Shown here: positions 56,727 through 60,800 of the stretch, one piece after another
Layout: each line of letters begins with the position of its first letter
Numbering within the stretch: position 1 is the stretch's first letter
Assembly (NCBI RefSeq): GCF_006517175.1
Contig: NZ_CP041186.1
Location: forward strand, 2,445,001-2,509,000
Direction of reading: 5' to 3'
From: Persicimonas caeni
GTDB taxonomy: Bacteria > Myxococcota_A > Bradymonadia > Bradymonadales > Bradymonadaceae
Length of the DNA stretch: 64,000 nucleotides
Notes under the pieces: model-generated
Seen by the model: the letters and a program-made list of their open reading frames with translations, nothing else
Told to the model about the DNA's origin: nothing
Databases searched by the model: none
Made by a program: the position numbers and the translations under genes

Positions 56727-58592
56727 ATGTATCAAAAAGCACTCATCCCTGCCGCCGGACGCGGCGCTCGTCTCGACCGCCCCAATACTCCCAAGCCGCT
56801 CGTCGACGTGGGCGGCCGCCCCTTGATCCTGCATGTGCTCGAGCAACTCGAGGCCGCCGGAGTCGACGAGGCGGTGGTCGTGTTGGGCTTCGAAGCCAAA
56901 AAGATCGCCCGCGAGCTGACCAACCACCCCGACCTGTCCATTCAGGTGACCTTGGTCGAGAATCCGTCGTGGCAACATGGCCTGGCCAGCAGCTTGCTGG
57001 CGGCCCGCGAGCACTTCGACGCGCCCTTCTTGCTGTCGATGGCCGACCACTTCTTCGACCCCGCGCTCGTCGAGCGCATGGCCCAGGTCGACCTGAGCGA
57101 CGAGCAGGTTGCCTGCATGCTCGTCGATCGTGATACGAGCCGAATCTACGACCTGGACGCCGCCGTCAAGGTCAACCTCGACGGCGAGCGCGTGCTCGAC
57201 GCCTCTCGAAGCCTCGAAAACGCCCACGGCGTCGACGCCGGGCTCTTTGCCTGCCGCCCCGCTCTGTTCGACGCCCTCGAGGCCACCTTGGCCGACACCG
57301 AGCCCGCCGACCTGACCGACGCCATCGCCCGGCTGGCCGCCGACGGCAAGGTCGCCGCCCGCTTTGTCGGCGAGCGCAAGTGGTACGACATCGACACCCC
57401 GCCGGCGCTGATTCGCGCCGAGATGGACCACCGCCAAAAGCGCCGCGTCGAGGCGGTCTTCTCGGCCGACATCCACGACACCGACCGCGAGACCCACGAG
57501 TACACCTTCGTCACCGGCAAGCCCATCGAGACCGACGTGTTCGTCCAGCGCGGCTTCGTGCGCAACCCGAACACCATCAAGCTCATCCCCGACGAGAGCG
57601 CCTCGTCGCCCATCTACGTGTTCACCGACACGCGCGTCAACGAGCTGTACGGCGACGATTTCGTCGGCGGCCTGAGCGACATGGGCTACGACGTGCGCCG
57701 CATCGTCATGGCCGAGGGCGAGGAGTCCAAGACCCTGTCGAACTACACCAAGCTCGTCGAGCACGTCCTCGGCGAGGGCATCGACGAGCGCTCGGTGCTC
57801 GTCAGCCTGGGCGGCGGCGCGGTGTGCAACGTGTGCGGCTTTATCGCCTCGACCCTGTACCGCGGCATCGGCCTGGTGCACGTTCCCACCACGCTCATGG
57901 CCCAGTGCGACGCCGCCATCAGCCACAAGCAGGGCGTCAACGGCGAGCGCGGCAAAAACCTGGTCGGCGCCTACTACCCGCCCATCAATATCGCCGTCGA
58001 CGTCGAGGTCCTGGCCACCCTCGAGGACTGGCTCATCCCCGACGGCCTGAGCGAAGTCGTCAAGCACGCGCTCGGCCAAGACCCCGACTACCTGCAATTT
58101 TTGCTCGACTACGACGGCGCCATCGACGACCCCGACTTTCTGGAGGCGGTCGTGCGCAAGAATATCGAGCTCAAGTGCGAGCTGATGGCCATCGACCCCA
58201 AAGAGCTTCGCGAGGGCATGGTCCTGCAGTACGGCCACACCGTCGGCCACCCCATCGAGTACCTGTCGGGCTACGACCTGAACCACGGCCAGTCGGTCGG
58301 CATCGGCATGATGGTCGCCGCGCGCGTCTCCCGCCTTCTGGGCGGCTGCGACGAGGAGATCATCGAGCTGCACCGCCACGTCATCGAAAAGTACGAGCTG
58401 CCCACCCGCATCCCCGAGTCGATCAAGGTCGACGACATCCTGGCGATGATGCGCTTCAACAAGCGCTACCTGACCGAAGGCACGCGCATGGCGCTCGTCG
58501 ACGGGCCGGGCACGCTGTGGTCGGTCGACGATGACTACGCGATTCCGGTCAGCGACGCCGTCCTTCGTGAAGCGATCGAAGCGAGCTATTGA
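56727..58592 (+). CDS. Fusion of an inositol-phosphate-cytidylyltransferase-like domain and a 2-deoxy-scyllo-inosose-synthase-like cyclase
   Basis: The 621-residue protein has two enzymes. Residues 1-235 are a nucleotidyltransferase: KALIPAAGRGARLDRPNTPK, NPSWQHGLASSLLAA, PFLLSMADHFFDP and AHGVDAGLFACRP. That pattern fits CTP:inositol-1-phosphate cytidylyltransferases. Residues about 255-621 are a sugar phosphate cyclase: VSLGGGAVCNVCGFIAS, SHKQGVN (about 399-405), GKNLVGAYYPP, LSEVVKHAL (about 442), YGHTVGH (about 502-508) and LNHGQSVGIGMM. The KQ-x-VN and GKNLVGxYYPP forms follow 2-deoxy-scyllo-inosose synthase, not dehydroquinate synthase (DS-x-GGK). Catalytic Lys and metal ligands Glu, His, His are present. 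Likely role: make and activate a cyclitol. Confidence 0.85.
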   Translation: MYQKALIPAAGRGARLDRPNTPKPLVDVGGRPLILHVLEQLEAAGVDEAVVVLGFEAKKIARELTNHPDLSIQVTLVENPSWQHGLASSLLAAREHFDAPFLLSMADHFFDPALVERMAQVDLSDEQVACMLVDRDTSRIYDLDAAVKVNLDGERVLDASRSLENAHGVDAGLFACRPALFDALEATLADTEPADLTDAIARLAADGKVAARFVGERKWYDIDTPPALIRAEMDHRQKRRVEAVFSADIHDTDRETHEYTFVTGKPIETDVFVQRGFVRNPNTIKLIPDESASSPIYVFTDTRVNELYGDDFVGGLSDMGYDVRRIVMAEGEESKTLSNYTKLVEHVLGEGIDERSVLVSLGGGAVCNVCGFIASTLYRGIGLVHVPTTLMAQCDAAISHKQGVNGERGKNLVGAYYPPINIAVDVEVLATLEDWLIPDGLSEVVKHALGQDPDYLQFLLDYDGAIDDPDFLEAVVRKNIELKCELMAIDPKELREGMVLQYGHTVGHPIEYLSGYDLNHGQSVGIGMMVAARVSRLLGGCDEEIIELHRHVIEKYELPTRIPESIKVDDILAMMRFNKRYLTEGTRMALVDGPGTLWSVDDDYAIPVSDAVLREAIEASY

Positions 58593-58600
58593 GGTCGACC

Positions 58601-59341
58601 ATGCCACGCGAAATCCTGATCACCGGCGGCTCCTCCGGCATCGGCCTCGAGACCGCCCGCGCCTTCATCGAAGCGGGCGACGACGTCCACATCGCCAGCC
58701 GCAACGCAGACAAACTGCAAGCGGCGAAGCAAGAGCTGGGCGACGTCACCACCCACCCGCTCGACGTCACTGACCAGGCCGCCGTCGACGCGCTCTTCGT
58801 CGAGCTCGGCGCCCTCGACGTGCTCGTGGCCAACGCCGGCGTCTGCCTGCAGGCGCGCCTCGACGACGCGAACACCGACGAGGTCTGGCACACCACCATG
58901 GATGTGAACCTCAACGGCGTCTACTACTGCCTCAAGGCCGCCCAGAAGACCCTCGTCGACGGCGGAAGCATCGTCACCGTCTCGTCGGGCCTGGGCAAAA
59001 ACGCCCGCGCCGGCTACGAGGCCTACACCGCCAGCAAGCACGCCGTTTTGGGGCTGACCAAATGCGTCGCCCTCGAACTCGCCCCGCGCGGCATCCGCGT
59101 CAACGCGGTCTGCCCCGGCTGGGTCGACACCCCCATGTCGCGCGCCGACAGCGCCGAAGGCGCGCGACGCGCCGGTGTGGAAACCGACGAGTTCCGCAAG
59201 GAGGCCATCGCCGGCATCCCGCTCGGCCGCATGGTCGAGCCGGAGGATGTCGCCGACTTGATCGCATTTTTGTGCTCCGGCGCAGCACGTGCAATCACCG
59301 GGCAGTCGTACAACATCGCCTGCGGCGAGTTCTTCAACTGA
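58601..59341 (+). CDS. Short-chain dehydrogenase/reductase (candidate cyclitol ketone reductase)
   Basis: The 246-residue classical SDR has the cofactor loop TGGSSGIGLETARAF, VLVANAGV, the active-site Ser in VTVSSGLG and Tyr-x3-Lys in YEAYTASKHAVLG, and PGWVDTPMS. It reduces or oxidises an alcohol/ketone pair with NAD(P). Starting 9 bases after the cyclase fusion, it could reduce the ketone of an inosose-type product. Substrate is inferred from position only. GAGGT seven bases before ATG 58601 supports the start over an in-frame TTG at 58589. Long family B repeats follow its stop. Confidence 0.88.
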   Translation: MPREILITGGSSGIGLETARAFIEAGDDVHIASRNADKLQAAKQELGDVTTHPLDVTDQAAVDALFVELGALDVLVANAGVCLQARLDDANTDEVWHTTMDVNLNGVYYCLKAAQKTLVDGGSIVTVSSGLGKNARAGYEAYTASKHAVLGLTKCVALELAPRGIRVNAVCPGWVDTPMSRADSAEGARRAGVETDEFRKEAIAGIPLGRMVEPEDVADLIAFLCSGAARAITGQSYNIACGEFFN

Positions 59342-59366
59342 GAACACAGCTCGATCGAGCAAACGC

Positions 59367-59604
59367 ATCCTCTCCGCCCGCAGCGAAGCGAAGGGAAGGA
59401 GAGGACCGAGGAGAGGCTCCCTTTCCATGAAGCGAAGCAAAATGGAGAGGGATCAAGGGAGAGGTCTTTCGCACACCAACTACTTTCCTCCTCCTCGGTC
59501 CTCCTCCACTCCGCTACGCTTCGCGGAGGAGGAGTCCCCTCCTTGGTCCTCCCCATCTCTCCGCTGCGCTACGAGCGGGGAGGAAAATGTCGAGTAGAGT
59601 AGGC
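59367..59604. repeat. Family B repeat tract between the SDR and kinase genes
   Basis: It contains CCTCTCCGCCCGCAGCG, GGGAAGGAGAGGACCGAGG and CCCTTTCCATGAAGCG-type stems, ACCAACTACTTTCC, CCTCCTCC...GGAGGAGG, and a last GGGGAGGAAAATGTCGAG. The order matches the tracts at 4444-4714 and 19208-19673. The final copy ends about six bases before the kinase start, so the kinase ribosome site region is repeat-derived. Confidence 0.85.
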
Positions 59605-59609
59605 TTTTC

Positions 59610-60572
59610 ATGAAGACGTTGATCGCCGGCCACACCACCCACGACCACTACCAAGGCGGCTTCGCCGCCGGCGGCTGCGCCTTCTACGGCGCCAAGGTCC
59701 ACCACGCGCTCGACCGCCTCGCAGCGAGGGCAAGATGCCCCCGCACCGATGGGACGAGCGCAGCTTCGGTGCGGGGGCATCTTGCCCTCGTCGACGGACA
59801 CACCCACCTGGTCACCGTCGTCGGCCACGACTTCACCCGCGACGACGAACTCAGCGACCTCGACGCCACCGTCCACCGCCAGGGCCAGACGACCGTCTTC
59901 GCCAACTACTACCCCGACGACGCCCCGCGCATCCAACTGCTCGAGGCGATGGCCCCCGAGGTCACCCCCGACATGGTGTCAGACACCATGTTGGACGCCG
60001 ACCTCGTCCACCTCGCCCCGGTCCTGGGCGAAATCGACCTGCTTCGCTGGAAGGACGCCGTCGGCGACGGCCTCCTGGCGATCAACGTGCAGGGCTGGAT
60101 CAAAGTCCCCGGCCCTGTCTTCGACGCCTCCGAGCTCGAAGGCGTCCAGCAACGCGGCGTCACCGGCCAAGCGCACCGCGTCGTCCAGCAGTTCTGGGAT
60201 GTGACCGAAGAGGATTTTCGGGGCGTCGACATCGCCTGCTTGAGCGAAGAGGACGTCATCGACCAACCCGGCCTGCTCGACAAGCTCGTGCGCGCCGTGC
60301 CCATCGTCGCCTATACCCTGGGCGAGCAGGGAAGCCGCATCTATGTCGACGGCGAACCCACCGAGGTGGGCATCTACCCCACCGACGCGGTCGACCCCAC
60401 CGGCGCCGGCGACACCTTCGCTGCGAGCTTCTGCCACCAAATCGCCGCCGGCCATGCTCCCGTCGACGCCGCCCGCTTCGCCGCGGCCTGCGCCTCCATC
60501 GTCGTCGAAGATATCGGCGCCCGCGCCCTCACCCGCCTCGACGAGGCCGAGGGGCGCATGGAGGCGATTTGA
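59610..60572 (+). CDS. PfkB-family carbohydrate/cyclitol kinase with an in-frame hairpin insertion
   Basis: The 320-residue PfkB kinase has GGFAAGGCAFYGAKVHHAL near the N-terminus, HTHLVTVVGHDF, and the C-terminal DAVDPTGAGDTFAASF with catalytic Asp and anion hole. It phosphorylates a sugar or cyclitol hydroxyl; inositol-type kinases belong to this family. Between HHAL and HTHLVTVVG about 25 residues (RLAARARCPRTDGTSAASV and on) replace a normal short loop and come from a perfect 25-base inverted repeat at 59725-59790. The frame is kept and motifs flank it intact, so the enzyme may still work. As third gene of the cyclase set, it may supply the cyclitol phosphate for activation. Confidence 0.85.
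   Translation: MKTLIAGHTTHDHYQGGFAAGGCAFYGAKVHHALDRLAARARCPRTDGTSAASVRGHLALVDGHTHLVTVVGHDFTRDDELSDLDATVHRQGQTTVFANYYPDDAPRIQLLEAMAPEVTPDMVSDTMLDADLVHLAPVLGEIDLLRWKDAVGDGLLAINVQGWIKVPGPVFDASELEGVQQRGVTGQAHRVVQQFWDVTEEDFRGVDIACLSEEDVIDQPGLLDKLVRAVPIVAYTLGEQGSRIYVDGEPTEVGIYPTDAVDPTGAGDTFAASFCHQIAAGHAPVDAARFAAACASIVVEDIGARALTRLDEAEGRMEAI
59725..59790. repeat. Perfect 25-base inverted repeat inside the kinase gene
   Basis: Arms 59725-59749 (CGAGGGCAAGATGCCCCCGC and on to ACCGA) and 59766-59790 are exact reverse complements with a 16-base loop. It is unlike families A-D and occurs once in this window. It is translated in frame, adding about 22 residues. Confidence 0.95.
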
Positions 60573-60573
60573 G

Positions 60574-60800
60574 GGGCGGAGGCCCTGCAGGAGAGCAACG
60601 CCTGCTATTAGGGGCGAGGGCTGAACAGCGCCCTCGACAAACGACAATTTGAGGGTCGACTCATCCACCACATGAGGCTCATTGAAGTCATCAACCACAT
60701 GAGCCACATTGAAACGCCCCTCAAATTGTAGTTCCGCGCCGCCGTTCAGGCGCCCCTAATAGCTGGCGCCGCGCCCCTGCAAGGCGTTCGCCCACCGTCG
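60574..60800. repeat. Family C palindrome nested in a family D palindrome
   Basis: Outer arms: CCCTGCAGGAGAGCAACGCC with TATTAGGGGCGAGG on the left, and GGCGCCCCTAATAGCTGGCG with CCCCTGCAAGGCG on the right (family D). Inside (about 60640-60740) are ACAAACGACAATTTGAGGG and CCCCTCAAATTGTAGTT (family C arms) around two CCACATGAG units. This fills most of the 330-base gap between the kinase stop and the antiporter start. No promoter was assigned. Confidence 0.8.

Follow-up and report, generated by a model that had tools for sequence, protein, structure and literature searches.

Intragenic REPs (repetitive extragenic palindromes) have been described in several species, and over half of them are dimers or groups that encode 20–30 residues; RPE-4 and RPE-6 of Rickettsia have been classed with them (Di Nocera et al. 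2013, PMC3733652). In-frame REP insertions occur even within tnpAREP genes, and some classes of RAYT (REP-associated tyrosine transposase) go with hairpins that lack GT[AG]G (Quentin et al. 2018, PMC6006769).

A hairpin in a PfkB-family kinase gene of Persicimonas caeni is very probably a tail-to-tail dimer of a mobile, RAYT-linked, REP-type half-unit (R, GAGGGCAAGATGCCCMCGCACCGA) that was inserted into the gene. No homologue has the segment, its arms are members of a family spread over the genome, and copies of this family stand on both sides of a RAYT gene in that genome. Like the GTAG and CGTC intragenic REPs (PMC3733652), R is a short high-copy palindrome lying mainly 3' of genes or between convergent genes, with occasional in-frame dimers of 20–30 residues, and tail-to-tail dimers are known there too. 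Its foot is GGTGC and its loop CATCTTG, however, with neither GTAG nor a conserved CGTC tag, and R has a RAYT whereas CGTC REPs have none. With the REPINs and BIMEs of Pseudomonas and E. coli and their RAYT (TnpAREP), R shares inverted REP pairs, a RAYT flanked by its own units (a REPtron) and reported frame-keeping intragenic insertions (PMC3116915, PMC6006769), but its foot differs from GT[AG]G, the kinase dimer has its feet inward, and there are long head-to-tail 28–31 bp arrays. Rickettsia palindromic elements likewise sit in frame inside proteins, whereas for R gene bodies are the exception and not the favoured site. The likeness is one of way of life, and the analogy drawn in the original prediction holds in the sense of 'works like', RPE-4 and RPE-6 being classed as intragenic REPs (PMC3733652).

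The window, i.e. the whole stretch of 64,000 nucleotides that was analysed, contains the following features in the kinase gene:

59610–60572, + strand: host gene, a PfkB/ribokinase-family kinase of 320 aa with the GAGD motif (DPTGAGDTF), from the ORF, Pfam (PfkB, E = 1e-18) and Foldseek
59710–59714, no strand: TCGAC, left copy of a 5-bp direct repeat around the insert, read from the sequence
59715–59795, + strand: inferred inserted segment of 81 bp or 27 codons (RLAARARCPRTDGTSAASVRGHLALVD), a gap in 16 of 16 homologues
59725–59749, + strand: left arm, REP half-unit R (CGAGGGCAAGATGCCCCCGCACCGA), its foot (CGCACCGA) toward the loop; 124 exact genome copies
59750–59765, no strand: 16-nt loop separating the arms, from the inverted-repeat search
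59766–59790, − strand: right arm, half-unit R on the opposite strand, making the dimer tail-to-tail with feet inward
59791–59795, no strand: TCGAC, right copy of the direct repeat, read from the sequence
59971–59991, + strand: second, unrelated palindrome (ACATGGTGTCAGACACCATGT, core GGTGTCAGACACC); 96 exact genome copies

The best Foldseek match of the kinase model is myo-inositol kinase (3w4s, E = 1.4e-18). Upstream neighbours (window 56727–60572) are a nucleotidyltransferase/AroB-like fusion, with similarity to inositol-phosphate cytidylyltransferase, and an SDR oxidoreductase; together with the nearest fold, this neighbourhood perhaps points to a cyclitol pathway. On the 3' side (window 60600–60780) lies an inverted repeat around TTTGAGGGTCGA...CCACATGAGG...GCCCCTCAAATT, and a palindrome resembling it was found near a Y1 gene in another locus (L083).

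The two 25-nt arms are 100% complementary. About 2e-8 inverted repeats of at least 25 bp with a loop of at most 50 are expected in 64 kb of the same composition, and a chance palindrome was accordingly rejected. The tail-to-tail dimer is open in all six frames. An Rfam search of the hairpin returned no family reaching its gathering score, only weak matches to miRNA models, which were discounted because any perfect stem yields such matches.

Is this segment part of the ancestral kinase or an addition to it? Sixteen homologues from the host's own family and class were aligned (32–64% identity), and all 16 have the same clean 27-residue gap; the relatives compared are other genera of the family. 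The insert separates the helix GGCAFYGAKVHHAL from the strand HLVTVVG, and removing 59715–59795 joins the flanks as HHALDGHTHLVTVVG (HHALDGHTHLV), which is collinear with relatives such as HHAMEGRCRLATVVG. These ends are the simplest placement, since the TCGAC repeat lets them slide by up to 5 nt. The direct repeat may be a footprint of insertion, like the target-site duplication at the ends of a MITE, or chance: it is only 5 bp long, and perhaps fortuitous because CGAC elsewhere often precedes the R unit or is part of it. The original prediction had described a perfect 25-base hairpin lying in frame between a conserved helix and strand, and all of this was borne out: ORF 59610–60572 is open throughout and both elements are where they were said to be. 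Its figure of about 22 added residues fits the palindrome itself (66 bp, 22 codons), whereas homologues lack a segment of 27 residues.

In an AlphaFold2 model built with homologues the kinase has a mean pLDDT of 91.7, and the insert runs between helix H23–41 and strand E64–71. Confidence falls in the insert (average pLDDT 63 for residues 41–50 and 47 for residues 51–60), and the only other poorly defined region is one short stretch. The model puts the insert in a low-confidence surface loop on a well-folded kinase. In one homologue (L052) some ten unrelated residues stand beside the insert site, indicating that the loop tolerates changes in length. To judge from the intact fold and motifs, the enzyme is probably still active.

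The arm is a dispersed repeat. The 25-nt sequence has 124 exact copies in the P. caeni genome (G000, 8.05 Mb, one contig) and its 15-mer core GAGGGCAAGATGCCC has 373, whereas the reversed controls have 0 in both cases; a genome search had been proposed as a check on mobility, and the arm is clearly not unique. Copies occur singly, in head-to-tail arrays with a 28–31 bp period, or as 54-nt hairpins (TCGGTGCGAGTGCTTCCAGCTCTCGCNGRCGAGGGCAAGATGCCCMCGCACCGA; TCGGTGCG...CGCACCGA) with feet outward that recur every 62–74 bp. A second full-length tail-to-tail dimer lies at 6114156–6114225. Neither the 81-bp insert nor the half-unit nor the 54-nt unit has a stop in any of the six frames, so that the frame is kept whenever the insert length is a multiple of three.

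Locations were surveyed in 100 pieces of 20 kb taken at even intervals, together with the window (2.06 Mb, a 25% sample of the genome), with genes called by a simple codon-usage gene finder (82% coding). Of 39 R clusters, 36 are intergenic and three lie in ORFs; the true in-gene rate is below 3/39 because the window was chosen, not random. Clusters are mostly 3' of genes or between convergent genes: the neighbours are convergent in 18 cases, tandem in 16 and divergent in one, the corresponding figures for all larger gaps being 115, 497 and 217. Strong matches (E<0.01) number 118, of which 116 are intergenic and the other two are the kinase arms.

The exact 15-mer is absent from 56 relatives of the class. 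The variant CAGGCAAGATGCCTG, from other phyla, matched none of 57 genomes of the class. A full-text literature search for the core GGCAAGATGCC returned unrelated papers only, and the repeat appears to be unreported. Two further coding regions contain R-like sequence. In a 3059-aa synthase (L110:13050-13500), linkers between repeated carrier-protein-like domains hold R-like pieces that translate as GHLALE and QDALAPK, and at L171:18778-18888 an R variant is repeated three times, in tandem and in frame, giving REQDALAPKDAAPE within a proline-rich linker.

These distributions bear on two other accounts of the hairpin. That it is an ancestral protein segment, palindromic by chance in its DNA and lost in relatives, might be suggested by the variable loop length and the residues in L052; however, the insert residues occur in none of the 16 relatives, a comparison put forward beforehand as one that could unmask such a segment, and the DNA is a repeat that belongs to this genome, leaving this account scarcely credible. 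It is also improbable, if less extremely so, that the hairpin has been retained as a control element, a 25–28 bp mRNA stem slowing ribosomes or recruiting RNase III. Its predicted RNA fold is indeed strong (-65 kcal/mol against -35 kcal/mol in shuffles, z -8.5), but any perfect 25-bp inverted repeat folds in this way, the hairpin is found in 0/16 homologues, and the absence of strong copies from other genes in the sample indicates that gene bodies are avoided.

What kind of repeat is R? In the broad, RAYT-associated sense it has the features of a REP: it is a short palindrome in high copy number (124 arms, 373 15-mers), it is mostly extragenic and 3' of genes (36/39 clusters intergenic, 18 convergent and 1 divergent), and RAYTs flanked by matching units exist in its own genome (L246) and in Labrys (L236). 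The unpaired GTAG/GTGG at the hairpin foot that marks the GTAG superfamily is absent from R, whose foot is TCGGTGCG; its relatives have the feet GGGTGC, GGAGCG and GGAGTG. R also falls outside the CGTC superfamily (CGTC tag, 8–9 bp stem, AT first pairs, no transposase), and the bases preceding GAGGGC vary (GGCGAG, AGACGAG, AATCGAG). Nor is the kinase dimer a REPIN, in which inverted REPs have their feet outward: its feet face inward, unlike those of the 54-nt unit elsewhere. Lacking GTAG and a conserved CGTC tag, R is filed under REPs in the broad sense only; judged by its sequence, it is a non-GTAG, non-CGTC REP family.

The genome has 26 matches to Y1 (IS200-like) transposases. Twenty of these genes have no R units nearby, and the flanked RAYT is among the remaining six; the notion that R has no cognate transposase was therefore rejected.

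G000:C1:5453046-5453789: RAYT (L246) of 248 aa with the HuH motif SNHAHV, R units on both sides

Four to five R units precede this gene and one follows it, feet outward. Its match to NCBIfam REP_Tyr_transpos (3.9e-18) is below the cut-off. When the GTDB representatives were all scanned for GGGCAAGATGCCCNCGCACCGA, three more genomes proved to carry it: Labrys sp. KNU-23, a Chloroflexi MAG and a gammaproteobacterial MAG. Each of them has inverted pairs of this core or a related one. The Labrys RAYT scores above the NCBIfam cut-off (88.8 bits) and has inverted GGGTGCACGGGCATCTTGCCCGT on its flanks, and further RAYTs of the clade carry the variants GGAGCGCGGACATCCTGTCCGCTC and CTGGGAGTGCGGGCATCCTGCCCGC. 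P. caeni also has a RAYT paralogue (L281, 62% identity) with one in-frame stop (L281:1293). Its flanks carry CAGACCAAGATGGTCTG units (CAGACC-AAGAT-GGTCTG), with the loop of R and a different stem, and the downstream flank (2280–2412) has units of this type in a 33-bp array. Such flanking is what one expects for RAYTs and their cognate REPs. The two paralogues, whose flanking hairpins have a common loop and different stems, form a natural pair for studies of RAYT–REP co-change.

The dispersed family and the flanked RAYT in the same genome lend good support to the original prediction of a mobile palindrome tolerated in a loop. At the GGTGC-foot hairpin the candidate RAYT/TnpAREP would cut and rejoin single-stranded DNA, and it would copy or move an R unit into the kinase gene between the first long helix and the strand that follows it. 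The insertion would have survived because its 81 bp are a multiple of three, are stop-free in six frames and lie in a surface loop; the perfect stem may modestly reduce expression from the kinase mRNA. Two observations count against this proposal: the foot lacks GT[AG]G, and the kinase dimer has its feet inward, whereas the REPIN-type units thought to be the mobile form have theirs outward. It is possible, though on balance unlikely, that the segment came from the R family without RAYT transposition, by recombination, template switching or replication slippage of an array fragment (R unit – spacer – R unit). For the kinase copy such recombination stays a real rival because the feet-inward order is that of the junction between neighbouring array units; a similar R+ spacer R− segment is present at 6114156–6114225, and tandem arrays of constant period show that copying happens. 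For the kinase copy alone the evidence fits both routes and nothing separates them. R has nevertheless reached well over a hundred sites, which, with the RAYT that it flanks, argues for an enzyme serving the family as a whole.

The kinase gene also carries the second palindrome at 59971–59991. GGTGTCAGACACC palindromes flank a large set of RAYT genes of about 330 aa in inverted order (L087-L100, L241, L242). The 16 kinase homologues show no length change at this position. Eight copies in the sample are coding and, whichever strand they are on, all use the single frame that reads VSDT. Clustering of these palindromes with R units was considered and dropped, with one case observed against 0.7 expected within 200 bp in the random sample. 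The two palindromes occur together in one further gene:

L251:7550-7810 (G000:C1 about 3992550-3992810): repeats in a BREX PglX-like adenine methyltransferase gene

Here four 63-bp units, each an R palindrome plus a VSDT palindrome, amount to about 84 residues and link TPRWVADFLAKTCL to VCDPAVGGG in frame.

A broader proposal is unlikely: that a RAYT–REP family present in several phyla, its feet being GG(T/A/G)G(C/T) and its loop CATC(T/C)TG, has a six-frame-open unit built or filtered for survival inside proteins and repeatedly adds linker peptides to enzymes (the kinase, the BREX-type methyltransferase, PUFA/polyketide synthase linkers). The event in the kinase is a further, well-supported case of a known kind. 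The chain of evidence is unusually complete, running from empty-site homologues through the donor family to a candidate transposase that the genome itself encodes, and it makes the P. caeni kinase a clean, testable example of a non-coding mobile repeat becoming protein sequence.
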